Positions 10,254-64,000 of a stretch of DNA of 64,000 nucleotides are shown one piece after another (within the stretch, counting starts at the first letter, position 1; each line of letters opens with the position of its first letter). The stretch spans positions 1,811,001 through 1,875,000 of the forward strand of contig NZ_CP154630.1 of the NCBI RefSeq assembly GCF_039555535.1. The letters run 5' to 3'. The position numbers were made by a program, and so were the translations under genes. The notes under the pieces are model-generated. The model did not search any database. It saw nothing but the letters and a program-made list of their open reading frames with translations, and was not told the DNA's origin. This DNA is from Stenotrophomonas maltophilia (GTDB lineage: Bacteria; Pseudomonadota; Gammaproteobacteria; Xanthomonadales; Xanthomonadaceae).

Positions 10254-10263
10254 TGTCTATACA
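10254..10263. promoter_or_regulatory. Putative HutC operator in hutI-hutF promoter
   Basis: The 58-bp gap between the divergent hutI and hutF starts contains TGTCTATACA, a TGT-N4-ACA inverted repeat inside an AT-rich stretch (TTATATGTCTATACAATATA). HutC repressors of the GntR family are known to bind TGT..ACA palindromes in hut promoters. One site here could control both transcription directions. The assignment rests on position and symmetry only. Confidence 0.6.
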
Positions 10264-10293
10264 ATATAGGCGTCCATTTCGGGTTGTCCAGCC

Positions 10294-11664: not shown

Positions 11665-11691
11665 TCGCCTCCGCCACCGGGACCCCATTAC

Positions 11692-26970: not shown

Positions 26971-26989
26971 AATCCCACTCTCTCCGCCA
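26971..26989 (+). other. tRNA-Ser 3'-end fragment, probable attachment site
   Basis: The sequence AATCCCACTCTCTCCGCCA reproduces the 3' end of a bacterial tRNA-Ser gene (half of the T arm, acceptor strand and CCA). The 90 bases upstream do not contain the rest of a tRNA, so this is an isolated fragment. It lies 87 bp before the integrase start and marks the switch from GC-rich core to AT-rich island sequence, as expected for an att duplicate left by integration into a tRNA-Ser gene. Confidence 0.65.
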
Positions 26990-27075: not shown

Positions 27076-28536
27076 ATGCGCATCCCCCATCACCTCATCC
27101 GCACCCCCTCCGGCACCTACGCCTTTCGTCAGCGTGTGCCCAGCGACTTGCATGCCATCATCGGCCGCAAGCTCATCAAGCAAACGCTTCGAACGTCGAA
27201 CGTAGCGTCAGCCAGACTGCGCGCGATCGTCTTGGCATCAGGCTATGCTCAGGCCTATGGCGTGTTGAGGGATCAACGGGTGGACCGGTTTAGCAAGAAG
27301 GATCTGGAGTCGCTCGTCGAGCGATTGAGTGGCGGCGGAGATCGGCGTGATCTGACGCTTCATCGGACGCAGGCTGCGGACGGCACCATCACGGAACGCT
27401 GGCAGATCGACAGCGAAAACGATGTCCGTCTGTTCCGGCAAGCGCACAACTTCGCGACGGCGGCAGAGGTGGCGGCCATTGGCATGCTCGACCCCGAGCC
27501 GACGCCCGTTCGCGAGCCGCGTCCTCAGGTGAGCGAGACGATTTCGTTGGAGAAGGCGCGCGATGCGTGGCTGGCAAGCATCAAGCCGCGCACGTTGCCC
27601 AAGACATACACGATCAAGACAGCCGCAGTAGAGTCGCTCGTTGCGTTCCTGGGGCCTAAGTCAAGGATCCACACTGTCACTAGGCCAGACCTGGCGCGCT
27701 GGTATCAACACCTTCGTGACGGCGGGGCGTCGACGCCAACACTGACGAACAAGCAAAGCTATGTGGGAGGAAAGGGCGGCTTCTTTGACTGGGCCATCGC
27801 CTCTGGCTACTTCCCAAAGGGTGACAATCCCGCGACCGGGCATGTGAGCTATTCGCTGCGGGAGAAGCGCGCTCGGCGGAAGCTTGGCTTCAAGGCGTAC
27901 GACCGTGATCAGATCCAAACGATCTTCTCGCCCAGCAACTTCGAGAAGCTCTCTGAGAATGCTCGATGGGCGTCGCTCCTTGGCCTCTACACAGGCGCAC
28001 GAGCGTCGGAAGTGGGGCAGCTCTTGATTGCAGACATCTTGTTGGAAGGAAAGCTCCCTTGCATTCGAATTTCCGACGAAGGTGAGAACCAAAAGGTCAA
28101 AACGGAGGTCAGCCTTCGAACGGTTCCTCTTCATCCGGATCTCTTGGCACTGGGCTTCATGGATTGGGTTGCAACGCGCAAAGCAGTAGGTCACAAGCGT
28201 CTGTTTCCCCAGGCGAAGGGCGACGCGCTCAATGGTCAAGGCAATTGGATCACGAAGGCGTTTAGCCGACACTTGGCTACAATTGGCAAGGACTGGCCGA
28301 AGGCAAAGCGGGGCTTTCATTCATTGCGAAAGACCTTTATCCAAGAGCTGCAAACGCTCGGTGTGGCATCCGAGCTGCGCGCTCAGATCGTGGGGCATGA
28401 GCTCGATGACGAGCATCACGCCACTTACAGCCGCGCATTCACTGCGAAAGAGAAGCTTAACGGCATGGGAAAACACTCGCCAGGACTAGCGTCGTTGAAC
28501 TACGAGTTGCGTCTGCGAACGCCAGTCAAGGGTTAG
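27076..28536 (+). CDS. Tyrosine recombinase (island integrase 1)
   Basis: The 486-residue protein begins 'MRIPHHLIRTPSGTYAFRQR', the N-terminal type shared by many island integrases (DUF6538-like). A SAM-like core-binding domain lies near residues 155-270. The catalytic domain carries the first Arg in 'YTGARASEVGQLL' (near residue 310), 'FHSLRKTFIQEL' with the H-x-x-R pair (near residue 415), and a final Tyr in 'HATYSRAF' (near residue 455). All catalytic residues appear present. It stands next to a tRNA-Ser fragment and most likely inserted the left end of the island. GC content is lower than in the core genes. Confidence 0.92.
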   Translation: MRIPHHLIRTPSGTYAFRQRVPSDLHAIIGRKLIKQTLRTSNVASARLRAIVLASGYAQAYGVLRDQRVDRFSKKDLESLVERLSGGGDRRDLTLHRTQAADGTITERWQIDSENDVRLFRQAHNFATAAEVAAIGMLDPEPTPVREPRPQVSETISLEKARDAWLASIKPRTLPKTYTIKTAAVESLVAFLGPKSRIHTVTRPDLARWYQHLRDGGASTPTLTNKQSYVGGKGGFFDWAIASGYFPKGDNPATGHVSYSLREKRARRKLGFKAYDRDQIQTIFSPSNFEKLSENARWASLLGLYTGARASEVGQLLIADILLEGKLPCIRISDEGENQKVKTEVSLRTVPLHPDLLALGFMDWVATRKAVGHKRLFPQAKGDALNGQGNWITKAFSRHLATIGKDWPKAKRGFHSLRKTFIQELQTLGVASELRAQIVGHELDDEHHATYSRAFTAKEKLNGMGKHSPGLASLNYELRLRTPVKG

Positions 28537-35358: not shown

Positions 35359-36372
35359 TCAGCGCCTGTGTGGATGGTTGCTACGGCTTTGAAGGGGGCC
35401 AATGAGCTGTTCCCAGAGCATCTCGGCCGCACCCTCTTGAGTCAGCTTTTGACCCCGACTCGACCCATACGCGGACATGCCCATGCTGGTGAGGAACAGG
35501 GATTGATCATCGCAGTCAACCGATAGTGATTCGTTGTAAGAATTGCTATCAAGCGTCTCTCCTTGAATGTAGTTGATGCCCCCGAGCATTCCCCCCAGGT
35601 AGATCGTTGCCCGAGCAACGTCGTTCCCCTCGTGGTAAATCGTGGAGAAGAAGCGGTTGGCGTCGATTCGACGGAACGAGCCTTCGTAGGCCGGGTTGCG
35701 TTCTTGGAGTTCGTCGAGCGAGTTCTCGAAGTGCTTCGCGATGTATTCGAAGGTCTCGGCCTTGAACTTATCTCTGTCCCGCTGAGTGAAGGCCTTGGCG
35801 AGACGCAAATTGCTCGACCTCGGGCCATGCTTGCCTTGAGCGCTGCTTTCAGTGCTAGCGGTGCCGGCTGTGACTGGAGAGGCCTGTGCCAAGGGTTTGT
35901 TGAACGCAACTGGCTTGATCTGTTTGGCCGCGCGCTGTCTGGCGGCAGCTCGAACGGCTTGGGCCACATCCAAAAATGCTTCGTCGATATCCGCCCATTT
36001 TTTCACGGGTTTGCCATCCTTCGGGGTCGCCATTAGCTTCCCAAAAGGTGCGTGGTGCCAGTCGCAGGCTCTGAGGATGACGGGGATGACGGTTGCCTCA
36101 CCGAGTTCATGCCGTTCCAGGGCCCGGGTCATCTCCTTGTCATAGCAGTAGTCCGACGCAATGAAGTCCGGACTTACAAGAAGAAGGATGATTTCATCGC
36201 TATTGATGTGCTCATCGATCGTCTTATCGATCTCCTGGCCGGCATTGATGCGGCGGTCATGCCAGGTCTCAATGATCCCTTGGCGCCTGAGCATTGATAG
36301 CTGCTTTTCTAGCTGGTCGCGGAGGTCTTCATCTGTATGGCAATAGGAAAAGAAGACGGTGGGCAAGGTCAT
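35359..36372 (-). CDS. TIR-domain protein
   Basis: The 337-residue protein has an N-terminal TIR domain (residues 4-130): 'TVFFSYCHTDEDLRDQLEKQ' (box 1), 'INAGQEIDKTIDEHI', 'IILLLVSPDFIASDYCYDKE' with the conserved Cys-x-x-x-Glu catalytic glutamate, and 'VIPVILRACDW'. A Ser/Thr/Ala-rich linker near residues 155-185 leads to a second domain ('TFEYIAKHFENSLDELQERN', 'RFFSTIYHEGNDVARATIYL'). Bacterial TIR domains of this type cleave NAD+ or make signalling nucleotides in anti-phage defence or act as effectors. The second domain is probably the sensor. It is divergent from a GrlR-like gene. Confidence 0.82.
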   Translation of the reverse strand: MTLPTVFFSYCHTDEDLRDQLEKQLSMLRRQGIIETWHDRRINAGQEIDKTIDEHINSDEIILLLVSPDFIASDYCYDKEMTRALERHELGEATVIPVILRACDWHHAPFGKLMATPKDGKPVKKWADIDEAFLDVAQAVRAAARQRAAKQIKPVAFNKPLAQASPVTAGTASTESSAQGKHGPRSSNLRLAKAFTQRDRDKFKAETFEYIAKHFENSLDELQERNPAYEGSFRRIDANRFFSTIYHEGNDVARATIYLGGMLGGINYIQGETLDSNSYNESLSVDCDDQSLFLTSMGMSAYGSSRGQKLTQEGAAEMLWEQLIGPLQSRSNHPHRR

Positions 36373-40485: not shown

Positions 40486-40740
40486 AGAAGGACTGGTTGT
40501 TGTAAGGTCTGCGCCGCTCTTGGCCGAAAGCGGCGGCGCCGACGCAAGAGGGCACCACCAGAATGCTAGCGTCCTCTCTCGACCCGTAACGGACACCAGC
40601 ATTTCAATCCTTTGACCTTATGGATGCTGCGCCAGCTATCAAGTACTCTGCTGCAGAAGATCCAGCCCTACAAGGTAGGCCGGTTGAGTTACGACAGAAT
40701 TGTAGCCCTGTCACTGAAGAGAGAATCAAGGTGCATTGGA

Positions 40741-41781
40741 ATGATAACTAGGGGTTTCTATATTGGAGAGGTTATCGATGAGCTCTCAGTTGTCGCAGGT
40801 CAGGTTTCCATACGCAATAAGCTAGGGCTGACGGACCTATCGACGCTTACTGAGAACTTTTTCCGTGACCTTCTCAATGCAATTCACAGTAGTTCGCTCA
40901 TCAACCTTAACGAAGAGCGGTCCAACTCGCCTGGCCTCGATCTCGGCGATGACGTATCGGGCCTAGCGATCCAGGTAACAGCCACAGCCAGCGCGACGAA
41001 GGTCGAGAAGACACTTGCTAAGATTACCCCCGACCATCAAACGCGATACAAGCGTTTCGTGGTGTTGGTAGTTGGAAAGAAGCAGGGCTCTTACTCCATT
41101 GACGAGCAGGCCGCTAAGCGCCTTGGGTTTGCTAAAGAGCGCGACATTTGGGACGTAGATGATCTCGCCCGGCAAATCGTTGCGCTTGACATTGCTCGCC
41201 TGGAGGCCGTACACCGGCTGATTCGGAAGGAAGTGGGGAGGCTTAAAGTTGATCTCGAAATCCCGGACGCCGATGGCAAGTACCCCACGAGCGGCTACGA
41301 TCTCTGGGAGCAGCGAGTTAAGCCAAAAGTAGGTGATGGGAGTGCCTTTCGAACGTTCGTTGCACAATCGGCAGAGGTGAGCGAAGAAGAGATTGAAGCA
41401 GATCTGCCTAAGGAGATTAGACTTTTAGCAAAGCGGCTTTCCCGGCTGCCTCGAGTCACACGTGAGTTCTTAGTCATGCTCCTCACGCGCCAGACAAATC
41501 GGGATTCAGGGCGGTTCCATCCGCCGTGGATGACGTTACTGTACGACACAGTCAAGCGCGAGTTTCGGGGTGACGATTTAGATGGTGAACTCGGAATCCT
41601 CGAGGAAGAGGGGTTCGTTGAAGTGCGGGTTGAGGATCGTCACGAGAATGGTCCGCCTGAGATCGGCGTCCGGTTCCCAAGTAAGTGCGAGGATCTATCG
41701 CACTCCCTGCTGAGCTTCATAGATGAAAAGGGCCTCAGCCTGCGCACAGTGATTGGTGAGGTGGACTTCTCTGCTTTTTAA
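40741..41781 (+). CDS. SMEK-domain protein (predicted nuclease-like)
   Basis: The ATG at 40741 ('MITRGFYIGEVIDELSVVAG'), with AAGGTG upstream, gives 346 residues. The region upstream to 40612 is open but lacks family character. Residues 1-120 match the SMEK domain ('LTENFFRDLLNAIHSSSLIN', 'NSPGLDLGDDVSGLAIQVTA', 'TASATKVEKTL'), in which D-..-QVT-..-K resembles a PD-(D/E)xK nuclease core. The remainder is helical ('LRLLAKRLSRLPRVTREFLV' type winged-helix pattern). SMEK proteins occur in bacterial conflict systems. The gene stands alone before a broken gene and an insertion sequence. Confidence 0.7.
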   Translation: MITRGFYIGEVIDELSVVAGQVSIRNKLGLTDLSTLTENFFRDLLNAIHSSSLINLNEERSNSPGLDLGDDVSGLAIQVTATASATKVEKTLAKITPDHQTRYKRFVVLVVGKKQGSYSIDEQAAKRLGFAKERDIWDVDDLARQIVALDIARLEAVHRLIRKEVGRLKVDLEIPDADGKYPTSGYDLWEQRVKPKVGDGSAFRTFVAQSAEVSEEEIEADLPKEIRLLAKRLSRLPRVTREFLVMLLTRQTNRDSGRFHPPWMTLLYDTVKREFRGDDLDGELGILEEEGFVEVRVEDRHENGPPEIGVRFPSKCEDLSHSLLSFIDEKGLSLRTVIGEVDFSAF

Positions 41782-45010: not shown

Positions 45011-46402
45011 TTACGGATACATCCTCGCTTCCTTGCCCAATCGTTCCTTGAACTGACCCTTCAGATAGATAGGCAGCGGCGCCGAGGGCTGGTATTGAGC
45101 CAGCGCTTCAACCTGGATCTTCCTGATATTGCTGGCCGACTTGTGCACATAATTGTCCTGGAGCACCGGTGCCTTTTTGTTCAGCGAGTGGCCTGTAATC
45201 AAGGCGATGTGCTCAACCGGCACTCCTTTGGCATCGAGCTCAGTGGCCAGCGTATGGCGGAACGCATGCGAGCCGATACCTTTGGCAAACCCGACACCTT
45301 TTAGGTAGCTGCCAAACTGATTGACGAAGCCTTGACTGTAGCGTCCGGTGACCTTGCCGGTCTTTTTGGAAACGCTGGCGGATAGGTGTGGGAAGAGGCG
45401 GGGGTGTCCACAGGCTTTGATGTCAGCCAAGAAATCCATGAAGCCTGCTTGGATCAGGCTGGCGTGGATTGGGACCTTGCGGATCGCGCTCTTGCCCTTG
45501 ATGCTCTGGCGACTTCGGCGCCCCGTGCTTTGGGCGAGATCCTCATCCACGGTCCTTTGCACAGAGAAGCACCACACGCCGTGGTCTTGAACGATATCAG
45601 CCACCTTGAGCTGGGCGATCTCATTGATGCGCGCCCCTGTATACAACGCAATGAGCGGACACCACCAGCGGTGGGGATATTTCTTAGCCCATGGGAGGAA
45701 TGTCTCGGGGTTGAAGATCTTCTGGACCTCCCCGGTGGAAAGCAGTCGCTCGGGCTCATCTTGATCGATCAGTAGCTCTTCTCGTGCTGGCTTGAACGCA
45801 TCCATTGGTGAGTGGGGAATGGCGCGGGCTTTGACTAAGGTGTTGAAGAAGGAGGCTAGGAAGCGGCGATGGAGTTCAAGGGTGGAGTTAGCCGGCTGCG
45901 GTCGTCCTTGGCTCTGGCCCTGGGCGATCAGTAGTTCAGGAGTTAAGCCCCTACAGGCAGGGTTTGTCATGAAGTCATGAGGCGCCCAGCGCAGCAGATC
46001 CCACATCTGATAGATGTGCGTGTGATCGATCCGAGAGGCAGAAGTGTTGCCGGTCACTCGTTGCAAAATGGCAAGCGTCCGTTGGTAGGCATCGATGGTG
46101 GTGGTGCGAAGGTTCTGCCGTTCCTTGTCTTTGAGGAAGTCGTCGACCTCTTCTGAAAGAAGCCTGGCGGGGGTGGCTAAGGGCAGGGGCTCCGGATAGC
46201 GGGTACCGTTTCGCCGTAATCGGCGGATCTTCTCACTGTGGTCGTAGGTCGCTTGAACCAGATCCTGCAGATGAAGCGCGCCTGCGCGATCTTGAATCAC
46301 CATATCGCCAAATTCGACGTTGCCGATACGTATGCTGCGGATATAGAGCTGCCCCGTAGGCTTTTGTAGATAGTGATTAAGTTGAGGGTGTTGAAAGTGC
46401 AT
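45011..46402 (-). CDS. Tyrosine recombinase (island integrase 2)
   Basis: The 463-residue protein has a core-binding domain near residues 60-190 and a catalytic domain with Arg in 'YTGARINEIAQLKVAD' (near residue 245), 'GSHAFRHTLATELDAKGV' with the H-x-x-R pair (near residue 365), 'ALITGHSLN' and the nucleophile Tyr in 'LQDNYVHKSA' (near residue 405). It is unlike integrase 1 at the N-terminus ('MHFQHPQLNHYLQKPTGQLY'). Its presence in the middle of the island shows that a second element, probably 46.4 kb leftwards or rightwards, was inserted separately. Its attachment site was not found. Confidence 0.9.
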   Translation of the reverse strand: MHFQHPQLNHYLQKPTGQLYIRSIRIGNVEFGDMVIQDRAGALHLQDLVQATYDHSEKIRRLRRNGTRYPEPLPLATPARLLSEEVDDFLKDKERQNLRTTTIDAYQRTLAILQRVTGNTSASRIDHTHIYQMWDLLRWAPHDFMTNPACRGLTPELLIAQGQSQGRPQPANSTLELHRRFLASFFNTLVKARAIPHSPMDAFKPAREELLIDQDEPERLLSTGEVQKIFNPETFLPWAKKYPHRWWCPLIALYTGARINEIAQLKVADIVQDHGVWCFSVQRTVDEDLAQSTGRRSRQSIKGKSAIRKVPIHASLIQAGFMDFLADIKACGHPRLFPHLSASVSKKTGKVTGRYSQGFVNQFGSYLKGVGFAKGIGSHAFRHTLATELDAKGVPVEHIALITGHSLNKKAPVLQDNYVHKSASNIRKIQVEALAQYQPSAPLPIYLKGQFKERLGKEARMYP

Positions 46403-47377: not shown

Positions 47378-48178
47378 ATGGTCCCTCAGTGCAAAGAAAA
47401 GGCGAGCGCGGCATCAGAGTTGAGTCAGGTCGCCTCGGAGTTTAGTTCCAATTATCCCCAACGCTCACCTGTGGGCGTCGCCTGCATGGCGCGGGAGAGT
47501 TGGTCGCTTGCAGCACCAGAGGCCTCTAGGCCTTGGAGCGATCCGCGCTACGGTGGCTTTGATATTGAGCCATCCCGCAGCGGTCTGTTGCTTCAACAGG
47601 CGTGTCGACGGGGCGAATTGGATGCCGTCATTGCGATGCGCCCTACGGCTTCGCTAGTTGAGGCGTCTTTACACGCTCTTCCGATTGCTGTAAATGCCGG
47701 GCACATTGAGGTTGTGCGCGAGCTTCTCAGCTGGCCACTGCCTGACAAAGAGGCCATCCTCATTCGTGTCATCGCGTCCATCGCGGAATCTGGCCAAGCC
47801 GAGATGGTGCGTTATCTGGTGCAAACAGCGTTGGAATACGGATATTGCCGTCCGCTCCAACTTAGAACTTTGTTTCAGGCTGTGACGAGCGTTGGGGACC
47901 TGGCGCTTTTCTACGAGCTTGCTGATCGAGTTGGGTCCGACGTCGATTGGCTGTTCATCATGTTTGTCGCCGCAGAACGCAAGCATTGGACCTGCGCCGC
48001 GCTTGCTTGGGAACGCTGCGAAGATAGAGATCTAGAGGGAATAATCTCAGACAAGCAGACGAGTCAACTGTACGAAGAGCTTGGGCGGCAACAGGCAGCT
48101 CGAGACGCCCAAGAGTTGCAGGCGGCTTCGGGGTTCAATGGCATTGGCGCTGGGCAGTTGCGGGTTCGCCGAATTTGA
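47378..48178 (+). CDS. Ankyrin-like repeat protein C
   Basis: The 266-residue protein has a disordered first 60 residues and then ankyrin-like repeats ('LLLQQACRRGELDAVIAMRP', 'HALPIAVNAGHIEVVRELLS', 'VIASIAESGQAEMVRYLVQT'). The C-terminal region ('AAERKHWTCAALAWERCEDR', ending QLRVRRI) resembles that of ankyrin protein B at 32052. An internal ATG at 47486 could be the true start and would remove the disordered part. It follows the Cas2-like gene by 89 bp and has no own strong promoter visible. Confidence 0.65.
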   Translation: MVPQCKEKASAASELSQVASEFSSNYPQRSPVGVACMARESWSLAAPEASRPWSDPRYGGFDIEPSRSGLLLQQACRRGELDAVIAMRPTASLVEASLHALPIAVNAGHIEVVRELLSWPLPDKEAILIRVIASIAESGQAEMVRYLVQTALEYGYCRPLQLRTLFQAVTSVGDLALFYELADRVGSDVDWLFIMFVAAERKHWTCAALAWERCEDRDLEGIISDKQTSQLYEELGRQQAARDAQELQAASGFNGIGAGQLRVRRI

Positions 48179-48739: not shown

Positions 48740-49471
48740 ATGCACAATATCCTCATCGATCCCCCGCGAATCGCCTATTTGAAGATCCATCACCAGGAAC
48801 TTCGCACCTTTCATGATCGGCCCAAATACTGGCCTGCGCTGCGGGATGCGCTCCTTACAAGAGATGAGCCCAAAGCGATGCCGCTACTCGATAACTGGTA
48901 TCTGAGCTCTTGCGCCCAGGAGACCTTATGGATGGCAGCAACCCTGCGCCTTGAGAACGTTTTTGCCTATGTTGCCAAGGATCATTACCCCGCTATGTGG
49001 GGATCGCTGCATCTTTGTATGGCGTGTCTTGCGGGTGACGAGTATGCCGTTGGGCTCCTCGCGCCCTTCACTAAGGGGAGTGGGTGGGATGATCCACTGA
49101 TTTGTGCGGCGCGAAGTGGCAACGCCGCTCTGGTTCAGTCAATCTTGCCCCAATGCGACGCTCACGCTCATGCAAGCCAAGCTCTTGTGGAAGCGTGTGG
49201 CGTGGGTTCACTCGAAGTGGTGCAGCTCCTACTTCCGCACTCGTCGCAGATTGCTGCGGCGGCTAGGGCACTCCCACTTGCTGCGGCGCGTGGAGAGGTC
49301 GGCATCGTTGCTGAGATATTGGCCTCGCCGCTGCCCGACCGGCAGACGGCGTGCTATCGCGCCTGGGAGTATGCCGTGAAGTATCGGCAGACCGCCTGCA
49401 TCGAAATGCTCAACGAGGATGCGAGAGCATTGCCGCACACTGGGCTAGCCGCGTTACGGCCAAGCAAATAA
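48740..49471 (+). CDS. Ankyrin-like repeat protein D
   Basis: The 243-residue protein has an N-terminal non-repeat region ('ILIDPPRIAYLKIHHQELRT', 'HDRPKYWPALRDALLTRDEP') followed by repeats such as 'PLICAARSGNAALVQSILPQ', 'ALVEACGVGSLEVVQLLLPH' and 'ALPLAAARGEVGIVAEILAS'. These match ankyrin protein A in length and wording ('LLPxSS'). The C-terminus ends 'GLAALRPSK'. It is the fourth family member in the island. Confidence 0.7.
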   Translation: MHNILIDPPRIAYLKIHHQELRTFHDRPKYWPALRDALLTRDEPKAMPLLDNWYLSSCAQETLWMAATLRLENVFAYVAKDHYPAMWGSLHLCMACLAGDEYAVGLLAPFTKGSGWDDPLICAARSGNAALVQSILPQCDAHAHASQALVEACGVGSLEVVQLLLPHSSQIAAAARALPLAAARGEVGIVAEILASPLPDRQTACYRAWEYAVKYRQTACIEMLNEDARALPHTGLAALRPSK

Positions 49472-50351: not shown

Positions 50352-53315
50352 CTACCTCTCTAAGCGCACGCGCAATCTCCGGGCTCGCTCCTTGAATGCG
50401 GCTTCCCCGCCTTTAAGAATGTCGCATACGGCTTTCCGGATGACTGAGGACTCAAGACCGCCAGTGGTGTAGGTGATTCGGGGAAGCCCTCCTGAGCCGT
50501 CATGCTGGGACTCGGCGATGATGACTTGGTCGGCATCGGTGTTGATGACCAGGTTGGCGTTATGCGTGACCATGATCACTTGCCGGGTGGCCTTGGCCTG
50601 GACGAACAGCGACACAAGCTCGTCAAACACTGACTTGGGGTCCAGGTTCTCTTCGGGTTGATCGATGATGAGTGGGCGATCATCAGCCTCGTCCAAGGCG
50701 AGGTAGAGCAGGAGCAAGACAATGCCCCGGGTCCCCGGAGAGAGCTTTCGGATGTCAATGCCATCGTAGGTGATCTCATAACGAACCCGCAGGTGGTCGG
50801 TACTATAAAGCCATCGGGCAAATCGCTTCAGCCACGCCCGGAACTCCTCTGGTGCCTGGGGATTGAAGGGGGCGTGCGCAAGCAGGTTCTTCCAATGAGT
50901 CGTGACGAACGTGGTCATGGCTGCGCGGACGTCGGCCGCAGATCCTGTTTCCCACGCGACCAGGAAGACTTCCTTGGCAGTTTTGGTGAAGGCGCCGATT
51001 CCTTGGAAGCTTCCCGTCTTACGGCGATCCAGCAATCCTTCCTCTGCTTCGGCAGCCCATGCGTCTACATCGGCAATTCGGCGGACGGAAAGGCCGAGTT
51101 TGGCTAATGTGCCGGAGGATGCCGCGAGGCGGGTCAGAAGCGGCGAATAGAGCTGTTCCAAAGCCAGTTGCTCGTTGATGACGGCTTGGATCGCCCGCTC
51201 ATAAGCGTTTTCTCTCTGGGTTTGAAGGAGCTTCCGGCGATCAGCAGCGCCCTTTGCATCCTCCAGTCGCTGTTCGATACCGTTGAGCGCGGTTTGCTCT
51301 TTGCTGATGCGGTCAGTCAACGCGGTATATTGCTTCTGCGTCAGTTGATCGGCGGTAAAAAAGGCCGCAAGCCGGGAAATTTCTGACTCGAGCAGCGCCA
51401 ATGGGAGGCTGTCGAGCGAGGCATCGTCGGCGATGTAAGGGGCTTGGGGGTCGTGGGGCACCGGCGGCACGCCGGTTAGTTTTGCGATTTCGGTATCTGC
51501 CCATGCAATGTAGCCTTGCAAGTCCTGATCGACGTTGCCCTTATGCACGAGAAGGAAGGCGTCCCACTGTGCGTCTCCCATGCCATTGGCAGCATGGCGC
51601 GCGCGAAGCTGCCGGAGCAGCTCAGGTGAACCCGTAGCGCGTGTGGACGCCACCTCGCCTTGAAGGGACGTGAACGACCGGCGCTGGTTGCTGAGGTTCT
51701 GGATATTGGTTCTCAGCGCCTGAGCAACCCCGCTCAGTTCGGTGTGCCTTTGGAGCTGCGCTTGGGTGTCTTGCAGTGTGAGCTTGCTCCGGTCCGCCAT
51801 GTAGCCAGCAATGACCTGCTTCTTCTGCTCAACCTGTGCAGTCAGGCTAGCAACGGTAGCTTCCTTTTCCAGCTCCAACGCAACTGCGTCGGAGATCTGA
51901 GAAATCGCCAGCTCTTCTCGATCACGTGCTTGCCTAAAGAGCTGTGTCTTCTGATCTCGAAGTTCTGCAAAATCACTCGCGAAGTTGGTTTCGCTCGGGT
52001 CGTGAGACTGAAAGACCACGCGTTCAATCTCTTCCACCAAGCCATCCGAGGCACCCGAGGCTGAGCAGAGCTCGTCGACGAACTGCTGAGACAGGTAGCG
52101 CGCCTTTGGAAAAGACACAGCGTCAGGCCGGTAGGCGAGGGGCCGTTGATCATTGGACCCGCCTCCCCACGTCAAGTTGACCGATGCCCCGCCAAGCAGG
52201 CTTCGCGCCCGCACGAGAAAGGACGCGCTGGCGTTCTCATTAGCGTTCCATCCCTGCACGGGAATCGAATCGCAGCCTGCTGCGATGATATCGGCTAAGG
52301 CCGTCTTACCGGAGCCGCGCGAGCCGATGATCGCCACGAGCCCAGGGTTCAGCGGCACTTCGGGCGTTTGGAACCCGGGAGCGCCATGGATGCTGACGTG
52401 GGTGATTACATGCGAAGGCATGGCTGACTTGGGCGGTGTCTCCCCAACGTAAGCACGGCCTTCGGGATTGATGCAAGCTTGGCGAAGTGCATCGAACGAT
52501 GCTGCACCCTTGATCCAGGAGTAGCGGTTGCCCACGGGTTGACCAACGGTGTTCAATGCGTGGGCATCACTGCCATGGAGGCAAGGTTTGCATGCATCGT
52601 AGGTGGCGATGATTTGGTCTTTGCTCAGTGCCTTCTGGCCGAGCCAGAACTCGCGTTGAGAGGGGTTGCTTGAGAAGATGATGTGGGCGAACTTCTCGAT
52701 CTCTCGCCGCACGGTGACGTCGGCCGCTTGGTTCAGCCCACTGGTCCCGTCGCCAGAGGCCCCAGCGACGGCAATCAAGATGTTGTCCTTGGCCCAGGTG
52801 CTATCGACGTAAGACTGTCGAAGTTCAACGAAGCTCACCCGGAACTGGATGGCGCCGTTGCGCAACGCAGCCAGGTCGTCCGAGATGCTTGGGTCGGCCT
52901 TTCTGCCTAGGCGGATAAGATCTTGCCGGTTACAGCTAAAGCGGTCGCCGTAAGCAGAGAACGTAAGACGTTCCAAAAATCGACCAGCTTCATGGACATG
53001 GTCTGGATCGTTAGGACTGATCAACAGATGGGCGTTGACGTAGCCTGACTTGGCATGGACGTCCAGCCGGATTTCAACATTCGGAAAGACGAGGGGGATT
53101 TCTACCAGCCTTCCCTGCGCCTTTGCGGCGAGAACGTGCTCGTAGCTATCCAGCAAGTAGTAGTTTGTAACGCCCAAGGCATCGATAGGGGGAGAGGAGG
53201 CCTCCAAGGCATCCAAGTAGTTATCCCACGATCCGGAGCCATACTGATCGTTAAGCACCGTGCCAGGCGTGTGGACATGCGGATCCCATCTACGCCACTC
53301 AGAACCTCGTTCCAT
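50352..53315 (-). CDS. PHP-domain/SMC-like ATPase (TrlF family type)
   Basis: From ATG 53315 ('MERGSEWRRWDPHVHTPGTV'), which has AGGGGAAGAGGG upstream, the protein has 987 residues. The first 300 residues form a PHP-type phosphoesterase domain ('WDPHVHTPGT' with metal histidines, 'LHGSDAH' near residue 265). An SMC/RecN-like ATPase follows: Walker A 'IIGSRGSGKTALADII' near residue 335, a long coiled coil (about 460-760), signature-like 'KLSPGTRGIVLLLLYLALDE' near residue 880 and Walker B 'LIIDQPEENLDPKS' near residue 905. The architecture matches TrlF-family ATPases, thought to cut nucleic acid in defence. All key motifs look intact. Confidence 0.85.
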   Translation of the reverse strand: MERGSEWRRWDPHVHTPGTVLNDQYGSGSWDNYLDALEASSPPIDALGVTNYYLLDSYEHVLAAKAQGRLVEIPLVFPNVEIRLDVHAKSGYVNAHLLISPNDPDHVHEAGRFLERLTFSAYGDRFSCNRQDLIRLGRKADPSISDDLAALRNGAIQFRVSFVELRQSYVDSTWAKDNILIAVAGASGDGTSGLNQAADVTVRREIEKFAHIIFSSNPSQREFWLGQKALSKDQIIATYDACKPCLHGSDAHALNTVGQPVGNRYSWIKGAASFDALRQACINPEGRAYVGETPPKSAMPSHVITHVSIHGAPGFQTPEVPLNPGLVAIIGSRGSGKTALADIIAAGCDSIPVQGWNANENASASFLVRARSLLGGASVNLTWGGGSNDQRPLAYRPDAVSFPKARYLSQQFVDELCSASGASDGLVEEIERVVFQSHDPSETNFASDFAELRDQKTQLFRQARDREELAISQISDAVALELEKEATVASLTAQVEQKKQVIAGYMADRSKLTLQDTQAQLQRHTELSGVAQALRTNIQNLSNQRRSFTSLQGEVASTRATGSPELLRQLRARHAANGMGDAQWDAFLLVHKGNVDQDLQGYIAWADTEIAKLTGVPPVPHDPQAPYIADDASLDSLPLALLESEISRLAAFFTADQLTQKQYTALTDRISKEQTALNGIEQRLEDAKGAADRRKLLQTQRENAYERAIQAVINEQLALEQLYSPLLTRLAASSGTLAKLGLSVRRIADVDAWAAEAEEGLLDRRKTGSFQGIGAFTKTAKEVFLVAWETGSAADVRAAMTTFVTTHWKNLLAHAPFNPQAPEEFRAWLKRFARWLYSTDHLRVRYEITYDGIDIRKLSPGTRGIVLLLLYLALDEADDRPLIIDQPEENLDPKSVFDELVSLFVQAKATRQVIMVTHNANLVINTDADQVIIAESQHDGSGGLPRITYTTGGLESSVIRKAVCDILKGGEAAFKERARRLRVRLER

Positions 53316-53527
53316 CCCTCTTCCCCTGTTTGGCCACTCCGGGCCCCTATGGGGATCATATCCCTTGCTCGGTGCCAACGGGACCCAGATGGTTAGGGGC
53401 TATCCAGCCGCTGGCCCTAAACCGCCGTAAAGGACCGGCAAGCCCATCCGGGGTATCGCCACCTGAGACCGTAGCAACCTAAGCTAGCCACGTCGCTCCC
53501 AGATCGGGGGCTTTGAGGGACTCAGGG

Positions 53528-54583: not shown

Positions 54584-55552
54584 ATGACAATCGAACACAC
54601 ACGCATCAAAACGTACAGCCGGGCCAAGGGCCATTCGGCGATCGCAGCCGCTGCCTATCGAGGGGGATTTTTGCTTATTGACCCCAAATCCGGCACCAAG
54701 CACGACTACCGAGGCAGGGCTGGCATCATCCAAGCCTGTTGCTTAGCACCGCCACGTTCGCCTGCTTGGGTCCATGACCCGCAGCGCCTCTGGGCCGCAG
54801 CAGAGGCAGCAGAGCGTCGCCGTAACAGCACCGTTTGCCGTGATTTCACCATTGCATTGCCGCACGAGCTCGATGACCGCGAGCGTTGGGACCTTGTTCT
54901 CGACATTTCGCATGCACTGATCGAGAGATACGGCTTTGCGCTACAAGCGAGCCATCACCGGCCAACCAAGGACGATCCTCGCTACTTCTATGGCCACCTT
55001 CTGGTGACGACCAGACGCATGGAAGCCTCTGGGCTGGCTGCGAAGACGCGCGTCCTGGACGGGCGAATCAATGGCTACGGTGAGGTGCTGTGGATTCGAG
55101 CAATGATCTCTGAGCGCATCAATGCGCATCTCGGTCTAGGCGGGCCCCAGGTTGAGCGTAAGACCCGGGATCTAGCGGAGGGCCTTGCCACGCGTCGGGG
55201 CGAGGGAGTCGTTGGCGACGAGCAAGCGAGCTTTGAGCAACTCTTGGGCCGCTACCGAAAGGAGGGCAAGCTTCTTCCCGTCCCAGCGGGCCACACGGCT
55301 GAGCGGGCGCGTGGCGAACAGTCCAGGGCGCTCCCCATGGTTGCCGGTATACCTTCTCCTTCGCTCCCGTACAGCCCTGCCACTGACGCACTCCCGGTGC
55401 TACCCAGTGAGCTGCCTGATGCGGCTCCGGAGTCCAATAGACAGGTAGGGGAAGACCTACCCTGCAAAGCGGGCTCACCCGACTGGACGAGCGCAGAAGG
55501 CGGAGAGACTGTGGAGCGCCTCACACTTCGGGGCGACACGGAGATTTTTTAA
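54584..55552 (+). CDS. MobA/MobL-type relaxase, divergent metal motif
   Basis: The 322-residue protein begins 'MTIEHTRIKTYSRAKGHSAI' and 'AAAAYRGG', the signature of the MobA/MobL relaxase family (nickase for conjugative mobilisation, with Tyr near the N-terminus). 'NSTVCRDFTIALPHELDDRE' and 'VLDGRINGYGEVLWIRAMIS' also fit. However, the metal-binding HxH box, normally close to N-Y-H-A-H, reads 'DDPRYFYGHLLVTTRRM', so the first histidine is replaced. The protein is short and lacks a helicase or primase tail. It may be weakly active, divergent or decayed. It overlaps the next gene by one base. Confidence 0.8.
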   Translation: MTIEHTRIKTYSRAKGHSAIAAAAYRGGFLLIDPKSGTKHDYRGRAGIIQACCLAPPRSPAWVHDPQRLWAAAEAAERRRNSTVCRDFTIALPHELDDRERWDLVLDISHALIERYGFALQASHHRPTKDDPRYFYGHLLVTTRRMEASGLAAKTRVLDGRINGYGEVLWIRAMISERINAHLGLGGPQVERKTRDLAEGLATRRGEGVVGDEQASFEQLLGRYRKEGKLLPVPAGHTAERARGEQSRALPMVAGIPSPSLPYSPATDALPVLPSELPDAAPESNRQVGEDLPCKAGSPDWTSAEGGETVERLTLRGDTEIF

Positions 55553-57923: not shown

Positions 57924-60125
57924 TTACTTCGCTGCCCTGGAATGGGAGCTAAGGTTGAACGTCTTCCCGAGCCATTCCATTGCTTCGTGCAAGTTCAAGT
58001 GTAGGCTCGCGTAGGACTTCCTGAGCAGGGTGGGGGACAGGAGTCCGTCCCATTTTTGACTTGCCATGTTCTTGGCATCGGCCAGCAGCGTGTCAATGGT
58101 GGGGGCCGGTTCGGCGGCGATCTCTGCCAAGAGCTTCGAGATATCGTCCATGTTCTCCGACCCGCGCTTGATCTCGACTCCAAGTTTTCCTGACTGCGCC
58201 CTGAGGCCTTTGGCGTTCAGAAGGCAGGCGATGGCTTCGTTTGCATCATCACCCAGCCAGGTCAACAGCAGCCACTCGCTGCCCTGATTGATCAAGGACG
58301 CAGAGTCCAACGTATGCTTCGCATAGGTCACTTGCCCCTCATTCAAGAAGCGTTGCGCAGTGACGTCGAGAAAACGCGGTTCGATCTGCCCTCGGTAGAG
58401 GGCGCGCATCGTTTGGCGGATTTTCGTGTGGACGCGCCCGCCGCTGCCGCTGAACAAAGGTGGCGTTCCACCCTTGGAAGGGGCGACATAGATGGACTTA
58501 TGGGCTTCATCGATCTCCTCGACGAGCCAGGTGCGCCCGCCAAACAAGATGCGTTGGCCGACTGTGAGCATCTGCGAGATGGGCAGTGTCCCAAGCGACT
58601 TGCCCCCAGCAATGATCCGGAACTCCTCATCGACGGTAAAAGCGGCGTAGAAAGAGTAGTGGTTGACGATCTTGTCGCCCACGGGGCCGTGAAGCAGAAG
58701 TCCCGATCCGTCTTGCATCAGCACGTCTTGTTGGCCTAGATGCCGAAGAAGCTCAATGAACGCGGCCGATGAGATCCCGTCGAAGGGGGCACCCTTGGCG
58801 CAGAGCATGCTGTAAGCCTGCGCTGCTTGGAGCCCACCGTACTGGGCAATGACCGACAACAGTTGTTGAATCAACGTAGACATATGCGCCCCGTTGGCGA
58901 TCGGTGGCTCAAACCATTTCTCGATGAGCAACTGCACGACCGCAATGGCGTGAACGGTATCGAGCCGGAGTCGGGTTGGGAGATCTGACTCGGCGTCTAT
59001 TGCGTTCTCGACCACATACGCACGCAAGATGGCCGGCTCACCTTCACGGCGCCCGGAACGCCCCATCCTCTGACGCAAGCTGGCAACCGAAGGCGGAACC
59101 CCGATCTGGGCGACGCTCTTCACGGCGCCAATGTCGATTCCCAACTCCAAAGTGTTGGTGCAAATGGCTGTGGCGGGCCGCTCTTTTTGTTTGAGTGCGG
59201 CCTCTGTGTCTGTCCGGATCTCCTTCGAGAGACTGCCATGATGAGGCCAGAACTCACGCGGCCTATTGGCACCTTCGCTCAGCTCATTGAGCAGGTAAGT
59301 GTAGCGCTCAACTTCGCGCCGACTATTGGGGAAAATCAGGTTGCTGCTGCCGGCCAGGTTCGCATAGAGGTGTGCTGCGATTGTCTTGGATGAGCTGTCT
59401 CCGCTCTGCGTGCCAGCGTGCGGGATCGGCTCCTCGAAGCCTTTGACAACAAGTTGAAGCTCAGAGCCAGTGCCGGGTGCATCAACGATGGCTGCTTGGC
59501 CGTTGGGTCGCAAGAACCGGGCAGCAGAGCTTAGATCCCCTAAAGTCGCTGAAAGCCCAACGCGAGGTACCGTGCGGCCAATCACAAGTTCAATGCGGTG
59601 CATCAACGATTGAAGCTGTTTGCCGCGCTCGGTGCCGATAAAGGCATGAAGCTCATCAATGACAAGGCATGAAAGAGACTTGAAGATGCCTGCAACAGCG
59701 GTTCCGCGGTTGCAGAGCATTGCCTCGAGCGACTCCGGTGTAATCAGCAGCACGCCAAGCGGCTTCTTGAAAAACCGTTGCTTGCTGGTTGCGCCGATAT
59801 CGCCGTGCCATGGCCATACGGGGATGTCCAAGTTCTCGCAGAGTCGTTCCAGGCGACCGAACTGATCATTGATGAGCGCTTTCAGAGGACTGATATAGAT
59901 GATCAGCCCCGGCGCTGGGCATTCCAAGAAATGCGTCAGTGCCGGGAGGAACGCGGCCTCCGTTTTGCCGGACGCGGTGCTCGCCGCGACGATCACATCT
60001 CGATCACCTGGAAGGATGAGCGGTATGGCCATTTCTTGGACATCACGCAGCGCCTCCCATTGCTCCGCCCACAAGTAGCGTTGGATTTCTGGATGAAGGA
60101 GGTGGAAGGCGCTGGATTGGCTCAT
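57924..60125 (-). CDS. Lhr/BrxHI-like DExH-box helicase
   Basis: The 733-residue protein is a superfamily-2 helicase: motif I 'AASTASGKTEAAFL' (residues 47-60), motif II 'CLVIDELHAFIGTERGKQLQ' (about 157-165), motif III 'SATLGD', motif V/VI 'ELGIDIGAVKSVAQIG' and 'RQRMGRSGRREGEPA'. The C-terminal 300 residues ('TYKHTLDSASLIN'-type beta region) resemble the Lhr-like core. Related BrxHI helicases appear in BREX subtypes. It starts 4 nt after the stop of the ATPase gene, so it is the third gene of a coupled operon. It should unwind DNA (or RNA-DNA) as part of the same machine. Confidence 0.88.
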   Translation of the reverse strand: MSQSSAFHLLHPEIQRYLWAEQWEALRDVQEMAIPLILPGDRDVIVAASTASGKTEAAFLPALTHFLECPAPGLIIYISPLKALINDQFGRLERLCENLDIPVWPWHGDIGATSKQRFFKKPLGVLLITPESLEAMLCNRGTAVAGIFKSLSCLVIDELHAFIGTERGKQLQSLMHRIELVIGRTVPRVGLSATLGDLSSAARFLRPNGQAAIVDAPGTGSELQLVVKGFEEPIPHAGTQSGDSSSKTIAAHLYANLAGSSNLIFPNSRREVERYTYLLNELSEGANRPREFWPHHGSLSKEIRTDTEAALKQKERPATAICTNTLELGIDIGAVKSVAQIGVPPSVASLRQRMGRSGRREGEPAILRAYVVENAIDAESDLPTRLRLDTVHAIAVVQLLIEKWFEPPIANGAHMSTLIQQLLSVIAQYGGLQAAQAYSMLCAKGAPFDGISSAAFIELLRHLGQQDVLMQDGSGLLLHGPVGDKIVNHYSFYAAFTVDEEFRIIAGGKSLGTLPISQMLTVGQRILFGGRTWLVEEIDEAHKSIYVAPSKGGTPPLFSGSGGRVHTKIRQTMRALYRGQIEPRFLDVTAQRFLNEGQVTYAKHTLDSASLINQGSEWLLLTWLGDDANEAIACLLNAKGLRAQSGKLGVEIKRGSENMDDISKLLAEIAAEPAPTIDTLLADAKNMASQKWDGLLSPTLLRKSYASLHLNLHEAMEWLGKTFNLSSHSRAAK

Positions 60126-60129
60126 GGGG

Positions 60130-61428
60130 TCAGAGCTTAAACGAGCTTAGCTCGTCATCGGTCTGCACATCCAAGTCAGTGTCTCCTCCGTGGTCTTCCG
60201 CAACTTCCACCGAGCCGATCAGGGACTGCCAAGTCACCCCTGGGTTCTGTTCAAGAACTGCGAGGAGGTTGATGAAGGCGGTGATGGTGGTTCGAGGAGT
60301 GCGGAAGAAGCTCTCGCCAAGGCGCTTGGAGCAGTGCGCCATAAACTGTTCGATGGCCTCGTTGGGCAGCAAATACTTCGCTTCATCGCCACTGGCGTAG
60401 ACATGACGGATCTTGGTCAGCAGCACGTAGAAGTCTTCCGCCGTGAGGCTGGAGAGGCGCACAACCGGCCCGCTGAAATCGACAAGCCCGTTGCCGGTGA
60501 ACGTGTTTTGCGCCAGTCGGCTTTGCAGGGCCTGATAGCTATAGACGCCGCGCCTGGTGTCCATGAGGAATTCCGGCGTCCCACCCAGGACAAAGCCAAG
60601 GCCAACCGCCGTTCCTTGGAGAGAGTCATTGAGCATGCGGAGCAGTTGCTCGTAGTTCGAATTGCGCGCCTGTGCGTTCGCGAGCTTGTAGAGGTTGACG
60701 AGCTCATCCAGACAAACCAGAAGTCCACTAAAGCCTGCCAAGCGCACGAAACGTCCCATCAGTTTGAGCTGATCATAGACAGAGGCATCGTCAACGATAG
60801 TGCGAACCCCAAGCGCGGCTCTGGCGTCTGTGCGGGTGGCGAACTCGCCTCGAAGCCAACGTATGGCATCGGATTTAAGTTGCTCGTTGCCTTCATCAAA
60901 GCCTCGGCAGTAGGCGGCAATGACATCGGCAAAGTCATAGCCGTTCACAAGCTCGGTCAATTGTTCGAGCTTGGCTCTGAGGACTTGTTCGGTCGGCACT
61001 CCTTGCGCCTTGGCATCGGCCTTTGCGGTGGAGATGAATTTCTCCACCACACCGGCCAGTGCACCTCCCTCAGGCTTCGTTCGCGTCGCGAGATTGCGCA
61101 TCAGCTCGGCGTAAAGCGATCGGGCCTGTCCGCCGGAGGCGTGGAGGCGCCGGTCGGGGTTGAGGTCAGCGCTGGCCACCACCAGCTTTCGTTCCATCGC
61201 AATGGCGCGAACCAAGTTGAGGAAGAAGGTTTTACCAGCGCCATATTCGCCAATGACCAATCGAAATGAGGACCCGCCATCGGCGAGGCGATCAATGTCG
61301 CTCACAAGGGTTTCCACTTCACGCGCGCGCCCGACTTGGATGAGGTGTTGTCCAGCACGAGGGACAACACCGGCGCGAAGCGACTGGACCACGGCATCCC
61401 GGTCCTTACTGCGAATGGGGCTACTCAT
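60130..61428 (-). CDS. BrxD-like P-loop ATP-binding protein
   Basis: The 432-residue protein has Walker A 'VIGEYGAGKTFFLNLVRAI' (G60-T67), a Walker B 'SGLLVCLDELVNLYKLANAQ' near residue 248, and a sensor-like 'LGFVLGGTPEFLMDTRRGVY' near residue 285. It fits the BREX-type ATP-binding domain family (DUF2791), whose members BrxC/BrxD act with helicases or modification enzymes. Here the ATG overlaps the end of the TerB gene by 4 nt. The C-terminus is acidic ('EVAEDHGGDTDLDVQTDDEL'). It probably loads or powers the adjacent helicase, which is inference. Confidence 0.88.
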   Translation of the reverse strand: MSSPIRSKDRDAVVQSLRAGVVPRAGQHLIQVGRAREVETLVSDIDRLADGGSSFRLVIGEYGAGKTFFLNLVRAIAMERKLVVASADLNPDRRLHASGGQARSLYAELMRNLATRTKPEGGALAGVVEKFISTAKADAKAQGVPTEQVLRAKLEQLTELVNGYDFADVIAAYCRGFDEGNEQLKSDAIRWLRGEFATRTDARAALGVRTIVDDASVYDQLKLMGRFVRLAGFSGLLVCLDELVNLYKLANAQARNSNYEQLLRMLNDSLQGTAVGLGFVLGGTPEFLMDTRRGVYSYQALQSRLAQNTFTGNGLVDFSGPVVRLSSLTAEDFYVLLTKIRHVYASGDEAKYLLPNEAIEQFMAHCSKRLGESFFRTPRTTITAFINLLAVLEQNPGVTWQSLIGSVEVAEDHGGDTDLDVQTDDELSSFKL

Positions 61429-64000
61429 TGCTCAATCTTCTCGATGAATTCAGGGTTGATCTCCAAAGGATCATCGCCTTCGGAGAAGGGAAGGTCGTAG
61501 GCGTCGAAAGAGGCGTCGTTGATTTGCTCCAACGCGCCATCAAGCATCAACTCCAAGTCCGAAGCGGTATCTTGGAGCTCTGCCCGGGTCCAAGTAGGGC
61601 GCGACAACATCAGGCGAAGCAGCGCTCTGTGAGCGTCATCCAGGCCAAGCAAACCGGTTTCCGCTGGCTCTTCCTCGACCACCGTGAGGCCAGGTGGAGG
61701 AGCCGCTGGGTCAGGGAGCTCTTCGGCAAAGATGTTGGCCAAGAGGGCGGAGACTTTCGCAGTGTCGCGTTGGAGTGTTGCAATCCTCTCTGGGTCAAGA
61801 CGAAAACCTGTTGCATCTGGTGCGGCACTTGCTCGGCGAGCAGTAGGTGCATGCACATCGCTAAAGACGCGCTTGGGCTCAACGCCTAAGGTCTTGTAGA
61901 CCTTCTCTAAGAACCGCACTTCCTCCGGTGAAACCATGCCGTCAACTTGCGCCAAGTTGGCCATGGCTGCGGCGATCGCTTCCTTGGTGTTTTGACCCAA
62001 CGGATCAAGCTTCTTCTTCAAAGAAGCAAGGTTAATAGGGGCGACCGACAGGAGGAGAAGATGCGCCCGGAGCCTGCGATGGTCCGCGGCACTGAGGTGG
62101 CTCCAAGCGTCAATCTCCCCAGTCAGGTGAGCGAGTTCTTCGGTGCTAAACGAGCCGTCCGATTGCGCAACCGTTGACGCCAGTTGTAGAGTTAGGAGCG
62201 CCGTCTGGTAGGCGTCAGTGTCCGCCTGGTGCGTTTGGTCGGGCAACATGGCAAAAAGCACCACGTGGTCATCGATACCCGGTATGCGGGCGCCTTCAAG
62301 GACATTGGGCTCGATGCCAATGTGCGCCGATTCCAGAGCCCGCGCCAGATCTCGAACCTTTTCCCGTCCGAGCGCGCCTGAAAGGCCTCCGAGACGGTCA
62401 AGCACGTCGGACAAGGGAAGTGTGATCGTCGCCTCGCCCGTGTCAGCGTAGAGCTTAGCTAGGGCTATTCGAGGTGACTCCGGCCAGATGCTTGGCGGAA
62501 GCAAGAGCAATCCATCTAAGGTGTCTTTTGCCTCGGGCGTTTTGCCAATCAGTCGGCTAAACGATCCGAGTTCCTGGGCGCACTGATTCACAATCGACGT
62601 AAGGGTGTTCAGTGGTGCGCGTAGTGCGGTGACATCGGGGATGTCGCCAAAGGACTTGGTGACAGTCGTGCCATAGAGCCCGGGCGAGGTGGCTTGCCTA
62701 GCAAATTTCAGCTTGGTCTTGTTCTTAGTAAGGACGAGCCCTGGGCCAAAGAGTTCGCGGTACCGTTCTAAAAAGAGTCGGTCGAATTCGGTCTCACAGC
62801 GCGTTGCAGCTGTGCGGATGGAGATGGCAGGATTGAGTCTTGCCCATGCAAGGGCGAGGGGCCCCGGGATGGGGGCGCGATCTACGGAACACTGACCGAG
62901 TGCTAGACGGATGGTGAAAGGCAGATCGATGCTGCGCTCGAAGGAGGGCAGCGGCTGCAAGTAGAGCTTTTCTGTTGCGGAATCAAGCTCCATCCAGTCG
63001 AGCAGGCTGTTGACTGAGATCCTCAGAGAGCTATGAGTCGTGCCATACACCTTATCGAGCTGGCGCAATGCAGATTTAATCACCGGCCAGTCTCGCTTGC
63101 TCCCGCTGCCCACAGCGGCATCCAGTAAGACCCGGCGCTCGATACCATAGAAGAAGAGGTGCACATAGCTGAGGGAGCACTCAGGATCGGTGCGGTCGGA
63201 CGCAAGCCAAGTTAGATAGCCTCGCCGTTCCGTCGGCGAGAGCTCAGCATAGCTCTGTCGATATCCCGCATTCAGCACGCGATAGCTGCCGGTCGGAGCC
63301 ACGGCCAGAACGCCGTTGACCAAGCTCGGCTCGTTTCCGCCGTACTTGGTCGGGAGCTTCACCCCCGTATAGAACAACCCACCGCGAATGGTGAGGCCGG
63401 CGATTTCGATGCTGTCCTCAGGACCGAGCCAGCGTGTGGTGGCCCATCCCTCGGGCGGACGGGGCACGGAAAACTTGCGCTGCTCCGCCCCCGTCGTCGC
63501 TATCCTGTGGAGTTCGTCTTGGCTTGCGCCTGACCTTGGTGCCGCGCTGGCCAGTGCGGCCTGGGTTGACACTGCTGGGAGCGGTGGCGGCATTGGCACA
63601 GTCGGAGCTTCCGCCACTGGCAGAGTTTGGCTTTTTTTTGTCTCAGAAGCTGTGGGGGTCTGATGGCCCTCTTTGGGGCGAGGCCGAGTAAAAGAGGGCA
63701 CAATGATCAAGGGATCCTCGTCGCCGGAAGATTCAGAGCGAGCGACGGCGGAGCTAGCTTGGCGCTCGGCGACAGCTTTCATCGCGACGGCAAGGTTTCC
63801 CAAGGTGTCCCTGGCCGGAGCAATGCTACGCATCGCCTCGCGATCGGCCCTTGCCGATTGAGATTGTCTTTCAGTGACCGCGGTCATCGCAGCCGCGAGG
63901 TTCCCCAATTCAATTTTTTGCGGGGTTTTTGCGTCCGGCGCCACGTCTGGCTGGACCAGCTGCCGAGTCGATGAAGCGACGTCGCCGACAGTCTTCCCTT
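61425..64000 (-). CDS. TerB_N/TerB_C-domain protein, 5' end outside window
   Basis: The frame is open to the right edge. A GTG at 63942-63944 gives 839 residues, but coding character with a third degenerate repeat continues upstream, so the real start is beyond the window. The N-terminal region holds repeats 'LGNLAAAMTAVTERQ' (13-27) and 'LGNLAVAMKAVAERQ' (48-62). TerB_N follows (about 170-380; 'GLTIRGGLFYTGVKLP', 'SPTERRGYLTWLASDRTDPE'), then a TerB-like helical unit ('MANLAQVDGMVSPEEVRFLE', near 660-690) and a TerB_C end ('DPLEINPEFIEKIEQ'). The acidic TerB units bind metal or membranes. In Ter-linked systems such proteins accompany DNA-processing enzymes, as here. Confidence 0.85.
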   Translation of the reverse strand, partial: GKTVGDVASSTRQLVQPDVAPDAKTPQKIELGNLAAAMTAVTERQSQSARADREAMRSIAPARDTLGNLAVAMKAVAERQASSAVARSESSGDEDPLIIVPSFTRPRPKEGHQTPTASETKKSQTLPVAEAPTVPMPPPLPAVSTQAALASAAPRSGASQDELHRIATTGAEQRKFSVPRPPEGWATTRWLGPEDSIEIAGLTIRGGLFYTGVKLPTKYGGNEPSLVNGVLAVAPTGSYRVLNAGYRQSYAELSPTERRGYLTWLASDRTDPECSLSYVHLFFYGIERRVLLDAAVGSGSKRDWPVIKSALRQLDKVYGTTHSSLRISVNSLLDWMELDSATEKLYLQPLPSFERSIDLPFTIRLALGQCSVDRAPIPGPLALAWARLNPAISIRTAATRCETEFDRLFLERYRELFGPGLVLTKNKTKLKFARQATSPGLYGTTVTKSFGDIPDVTALRAPLNTLTSIVNQCAQELGSFSRLIGKTPEAKDTLDGLLLLPPSIWPESPRIALAKLYADTGEATITLPLSDVLDRLGGLSGALGREKVRDLARALESAHIGIEPNVLEGARIPGIDDHVVLFAMLPDQTHQADTDAYQTALLTLQLASTVAQSDGSFSTEELAHLTGEIDAWSHLSAADHRRLRAHLLLLSVAPINLASLKKKLDPLGQNTKEAIAAAMANLAQVDGMVSPEEVRFLEKVYKTLGVEPKRVFSDVHAPTARRASAAPDATGFRLDPERIATLQRDTAKVSALLANIFAEELPDPAAPPPGLTVVEEEPAETGLLGLDDAHRALLRLMLSRPTWTRAELQDTASDLELMLDGALEQINDASFDAYDLPFSEGDDPLEINPEFIEKIEQ

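Follow-up and report, generated by a model that had tools for sequence, protein, structure and literature searches.

A three-gene operon of Stenotrophomonas maltophilia assigned to the Shango anti-phage system, with a predicted membrane segment in its TerB protein

The 64,000-nucleotide stretch of Stenotrophomonas maltophilia DNA analysed here (assembly GCF_039555535.1, contig NZ_CP154630.1, positions 1,811,001 to 1,875,000; hereafter the window) carries near its right edge three coupled genes on the minus strand, in the order sngA-sngB-sngC, which almost certainly constitute the Shango (SngABC) anti-phage system within a mobile island. This identification from sequence follows from PADLOC, which names the three genes SngA, SngB and SngC, the gene names being those of Shango (PMC11096173; PMC numbers here and below refer to excerpts of the papers). 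Shango is already known and has been tested in other bacteria, and since it is a named system with published phage assays (PMC10250203), the operon does not count as a new candidate system. What had been the window's strongest candidate is thereby settled as a named system, distinct from a bacteriophage exclusion (BREX) locus found elsewhere in the same genome.

Identity of the operon and its separation from BREX

The genes were read from the open reading frames (ORFs) of the window, and the TerB gene was completed from the genome sequence to the right of position 64000; SngA has 966 residues, of which the window holds approximately residues 110-966 (857 aa), with the gene running past the window end (Table 1). 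A preliminary description of this DNA had proposed a TerB protein, a BrxD-like ATPase and an Lhr/BrxHI-like helicase, joined on the minus strand by a 4-nt overlap and a 4-nt gap; Pfam and PADLOC models match all three, and the coordinates of the overlap and the gap agree. In Pfam, SngA matches TerB_N (1.9e-44), TerB (2.1e-07) and TerB_C (5.2e-32), SngB matches BrxC_BrxD (1.5e-153), and SngC matches DEAD (1.5e-30) and Helicase_C (6.6e-14). The motifs that had been pointed out are likewise all present, namely Walker A GEYGAGKT and Walker B LLVCLDEL in SngB, and motif II DELH and motif VI QRMGRSGRR, which includes GRSGR, in SngC. When relatives are aligned, the P-loop G-x-GKT and Walker B DE residues of SngB are invariant (21 sequences), as are the DELH and QR-x-GRSGR residues of SngC (29 sequences).

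For each of the three proteins the best PADLOC model is the Shango one. SngA scores 346.6 bits against the SngA model PDLC03958; SngB scores 602.3 bits over residues 2-432 against PDLC03959, as opposed to 165.3 bits against the BrxD model; and SngC scores 892.6 bits over residues 4-719 against PDLC03960, as opposed to 387.8 bits against the BrxHI model. The features that define Shango, a TerB protein, a BrxD-like ATPase and a DEAD/DEAH helicase, adjacent, on the same strand and in the order A-B-C, are all found here. No sequence-related solved structures were found for SngA or SngB, and comparison of the SngA model with the PDB gave no match at E <=0.001, the top entries above that value being 2h5n (unknown function) and 2ou3 (a tellurite-resistance protein, COG3793). 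Upstream of SngA, a promoter and terminator scan returned a single weak promoter-like site.

The founding paper on Shango in Escherichia coli is reportedly that of Millman et al. in 2022. In Pseudomonas aeruginosa PA14, Shango has been described as three consecutive locus tags, for a TerB-like protein, an ATPase and a DEAD/DEAH helicase; in PAO1 the system lowers plating 10-100-fold for many phages, not all, and generally gives strong protection in liquid culture; the same source credits the E. coli system to another group (PMC10250203). The operon described here has the same three components as the PA14 and E. coli systems, and in P. aeruginosa PA7 (L068) the genes follow one another in the same order, SngB being 76% and SngC 52% identical. 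When measured against the PADLOC model of SngA, which serves as the reference rather than the PA14 or E. coli SngA sequences, and whose 528 positions match residues 130-857 of the 857-aa window part, SngA differs in its length of 966 aa, a long and mostly low-confidence linker, and a predicted membrane hairpin. A survey of S. maltophilia places Shango among the highly conserved systems (PMC11680222), and its mechanism is listed as unknown (PMC12926258, PMC10855318). Bunzi and Dionysus are also listed as having a TerB domain or homologue (PMC10952713, PMC12926258), which by description they have in common with Shango; in the present operon each of the three genes is matched by its Shango model. 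SngC differs from the Lhr helicase core of Mycobacterium smegmatis (5v9x) in being bound to an operon with SngA and SngB in a defence island.

The core genes of BREX lie far from the operon. PglZ has a single match in the whole genome, and genome-wide searches for PglX and BrxC, with one PADLOC model each, likewise gave single matches (PglX in two pieces at 1006680-1010461, BrxC at 1001241-1004858); the three share one BREX locus with BrxL, approximately 855 kb from the operon. Because PglX and BrxC, too, were found elsewhere in the genome, confidence in the identification as Shango is strengthened. The preliminary description had seen no PglZ or methyltransferase with the operon, which holds, and had asked what follows to the right of position 64000, where no BREX gene was the best match among the ORFs scanned (nine by Pfam, eight by PADLOC). 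Among nine related genomes carrying SngB, PglZ is present in one and absent in eight. Together, the Shango match, the conserved trio and the lack of a linked BREX core support the earlier proposal of a stand-alone defence or DNA-processing machine apart from BREX.

Conservation of the trio and its exceptions

The relatives compared here are named loci, the best 80 of at least 384 found by a scan with SngB, in which SngA-like frames were located by BLASTP, tblastn and a stop-to-stop scan (the SngA of L025 was missed by BLASTP alone). An SngA-like and an SngC-like frame are found in all 80, and the SngA-like stop lies within ATGA in 78, within GTGA in one and within CTAA in one. The order of the three genes among homologues, a check proposed at the outset, is A-B-C in 79 of the 80 loci, and because of this conservation a chance grouping is, on the sequences compared, excluded. 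Since SngB had served as bait, an independent search with TerB_C was run in 398 genomes of the phylum, which gave 12 matches, 11 of them above the cut-off. Nine of these loci were taken (the operon's own locus and G022 were left out, and the twelfth, sub-cut-off match was not included); SngB adjoins the TerB_C gene in nine of nine and SngC is present in eight, no SngC being found in L124.

SngB occurs in 10 of 199 related genomes, this one included. Its relatives are found on 680 of 72,556 plasmid records (E <=1e-60), of which 632 are at <60% identity and may include BrxD genes; 540 of the 680 records are typed conjugative, and a TerB protein is named under the match in 16 of the 20 plasmid rows listed. 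Among phage records, no SngB relatives were found at E <=1e-20.

Three loci depart from the common arrangement. In L074, a Hydrogenophaga metagenome-assembled genome, SngB is followed by a 436-aa TerB_C-only protein and then by SngC; an HNH protein lies upstream of this reduced Shango-like arrangement (5804-6526, 7001-12029 region). In L080 there is a second, shorter SngA with TerB_N and TerB_C and no TerB match. The arrangements in L074 and L080 suggest that it may be TerB_C that has to remain together with SngB and SngC. In L054, A and B stand 1.5 kb apart and, by tblastn, the locus contains part of sngA and the beginning of sngB a second time, which has the look of a partial tandem repeat or a misassembly.

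The N-terminal segment of SngA and a possible mechanism

The start of SngA, which lies beyond the window, opens with a basic part, continues with two hydrophobic stretches separated by the sequence PKEVW, and closes with another basic part. Residues 9-48 are predicted to form a membrane hairpin, with helices at 9-20 and 24-48 in the AlphaFold2 (AF2) model and a mostly low-confidence stretch from there to approximately residue 282. When membrane segments were called with a 19-residue window at a hydropathy of >=1.6 in the region before TerB_N, one was predicted in 70 of the 80 SngA relatives, whereas the remainder of the protein gave such a window in 6 of 80. Of the 70 anchored proteins, 61 have a P with K, R, E or Q directly after it between the two hydrophobic stretches, the commonest forms of the turn being PKEVW (11), PKNAW (9) and PKQVW (7). 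In this lineage the predicted segment takes the form of a conserved hairpin of two helices around a P-K-x-x-W turn. Residues 1-50, used as a query in a large protein database, returned five proteins (37 candidates), all with SngA domains. The predicted anchor is the one less familiar feature of Shango here, although its being undescribed is not established: the excerpted text of PMC10250203 mentions no SngA anchor, lacking the word 'transmembrane' and using 'membrane' once in an unrelated sense, and a literature search joining Shango with transmembrane, TerB and BrxD gave no paper on such an anchor.

A tether-and-load mechanism can be put forward tentatively. Through its hairpin and its long, mostly disordered linker, SngA would hold SngB and SngC at the inner membrane, with its TerB_N/TerB part sensing or scaffolding and its TerB_C part docking SngB, the ATPase. 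The latter, related to the Orc/Cdc6-like BrxD, would then load the Lhr-like SngC onto phage DNA that is entering or replicating, or activate it there, and replication would be blocked. Because Pfam gives no nuclease domain in any of the three proteins, this block would come from DNA unwinding or stripping or from a host nuclease, and the operon itself would not cut the DNA. Shango would in that case be a membrane-based machine, in which the N-terminal segment of SngA holds an SngB-SngC helicase-loading complex at the inner membrane, the entry point of phage DNA, and TerB_C serves as a universal ATPase dock, a picture that may hold but to which somewhat less than even weight is given.

Several points weigh against this mechanism. 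Gene identity, coupled order, intact motifs, the lack of a linked BREX core and a predicted SngA membrane segment can be read from the DNA; the tethering, the docking by TerB_C and the directing of SngC by SngB are inferred and are possible rather than probable. The hairpin itself comes from hydropathy and the AF2 model, in which the mean predicted local distance difference test score is 71-87 per ten residues over residues 11-50. A hydrophobic N-terminus is absent in ten of the 80 SngA frames (L033, L039, L045, where a contig end cuts it, L053, L054, L056, L061, L067, L073 and L074). Among the distant TerB_C loci, L119 and L124 have none in the first 60 residues (by eye), and contig ends truncate L120, L121 and L126; in L118, L122, L123 and L125 a single hydrophobic stretch occurs at the start or close to it (by eye). 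As for TerB_C, L074 is a single metagenome-assembled locus, and its TerB_C-only protein has one near-identical relative among the 8000 best candidates scored.

The main rival to the tether mechanism is that Shango acts by abortive infection, with the SngA hairpin as an effector that, after detection of phage DNA by SngB and SngC, depolarises the membrane or makes it permeable. The Pro-basic-x-x-Trp-like turn kept in most anchored proteins goes beyond the needs of a plain tether, and three proteins devoid of a Pfam nuclease domain would suit such a role; however, the ten SngA proteins without the segment and the distant relatives starting with a single hydrophobic stretch fit a tether better than a pore, and abortive infection by the hairpin is considered unlikely. 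It has also to be asked whether the operon is a housekeeping DNA-repair or tellurite-stress module and not a defence system, as TerB domains take their name from tellurite resistance and the best fold matches of SngC, judged by entry titles, are Lhr and MrfA, which act in DNA repair. This is very improbable in view of the patchy occurrence of SngB in related genomes, its setting in a low-GC island that carries an integrase and further defence-like genes, among them one matching ThsB1 at 474.6 bits, and the many SngB relatives, some of them perhaps BrxD, on plasmids, most of these typed conjugative. Shango of P. aeruginosa, moreover, protects against phages (PMC10250203). Weakest of all, and rejected with next to no doubt, is that the operon is a piece of a type 2 BREX (Pgl) locus with its core genes outside the window: there, too, BrxD and BrxHI form a linked pair (PMC12839542), a homologous ATPase adjoining a helicase, as the BrxC_BrxD and BrxHI matches of SngB and SngC reflect, but here a TerB protein is coupled to them instead of PglX, PglZ and BrxC, which sit together far away, the scores on the BREX models are far lower than on those of Shango, and PglZ is missing from nearly all related genomes with SngB.

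The surrounding island and the meaning of the find

The GC content drops from approximately 0.66 to 0.56 at 27-28 kb, at an integrase gene. When two left-hand regions were tested against the 60-89 kb side, a 17-bp direct repeat was found that occurs in exact form only twice genome-wide. As a control, 254 overlapping 600-nt pieces from the window's left were compared with that side, and none had a 17-mer in common with it. The repeat-bracketed region 26973-73189 is read as a putative 46-kb integrated element. Counting against this reading, the GC content remains at 0.59-0.60 to approximately 80 kb and two further integrase frames are present, one inside the element and one at approximately 80 kb, on account of which the island may be composite. 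No tRNA was found in the window or in the segments L002 and L003, and Rfam gave no match in 26000-64000.

Table 1. Coordinates of the operon, the island boundaries and the separate BREX locus (window coordinates unless stated).
Feature	Position	Strand	Basis or remark
SngA, TerB_N/TerB/TerB_C protein	61425..64325 (window part 61425..64000)	-	Pfam and PADLOC (PDLC03958)
SngB, BrxC/BrxD-type P-loop ATPase, 432 aa	60130..61428	-	Pfam and PADLOC (PDLC03959)
SngC, Lhr-core-like superfamily 2 (SF2) helicase, 733 aa	57924..60125	-	Pfam and PADLOC (PDLC03960)
sngA stop/sngB start overlap, 4 nt	61425..61428	-	ATGA
sngB/sngC gap, 4 nt	60126..60129	-	
Phage_integrase-family gene, island left end	27076..28536	+	PF00589, 42.6 bits
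Second integrase, inside island	45011-46402		
Third, short integrase-like frame	~80 kb		
17-bp direct repeat, left copy, candidate attachment site	26973..26989	+	just outside integrase gene
17-bp direct repeat, right copy	73173-73189 = L002 16674-16690		
Separate BREX locus	L104 32-12900 = G000:C1 ~1001241-1016900		BrxC, PDC-M07A-like ATPase, PglX (two overlapping frames), Orf5/HEC-06-like protein, PglZ, BrxL

Other genes of the island and its surroundings were also recorded. The ThsB1 (Thoeris) match belongs to a TIR protein inside the island (35359-36372), which also holds three ankyrin-repeat proteins, with Ank_2 above the cut-off for 29754-30836 and 48740-49471 and below it for 47378-48178; a frame resembling these at 32052-32714 has no Pfam match. 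An SMEK_N protein (40612-41781; 2.9e-38) has a PADLOC match of 121.4 bits to the restriction endonuclease (REase) part of the Aga_REase-PNTD class I model and counts, like the ThsB1 match, among the defence-like genes inside the element, and a 1008-aa SMC/AAA_21-like ATPase (50352-53378), whose N-terminus resembles a PHP domain by eye, has Ppl as its best PADLOC match (98.6 bits), the best stretch being C-terminal. Just upstream of SngA, on the other strand, are a DUF2971 protein matching PDC-S31 (L002 8444-9424) and a MobA/MobL relaxase (L002 9924-11549); a second MobA/MobL-like ORF was seen by eye at 54584-55552. Adjoining the right repeat copy is a plus-strand run of three genes (L002 13558-16458, window coordinates 70057-72957), encoding a protein without a Pfam match in which a P-loop was seen by eye, a fusion of a P-loop part with adenylosuccinate synthetase (PF00709, 4.7e-53) and a DUF7002 protein (9.5e-60), none with a PADLOC match; this run may represent an undescribed defence operon based on nucleotide metabolism. 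Another candidate defence gene, located to the right of the repeat, encodes a helicase with an MTES_1575 endonuclease domain (L003 8-4450, window coordinates 76008-80450), which scores 1333 bits against PDC-S37 and 529 bits against Hhe.

As a known system with intact motifs, the operon is an ordinary find, with some value for studies of how Shango acts. The SngA membrane segment and the TerB_C-only variant offer two direct, testable handles on the mechanism, and if the membrane-based mechanism were true, SngA would be the localising or effector part that type 2 BREX replaces by its own core.
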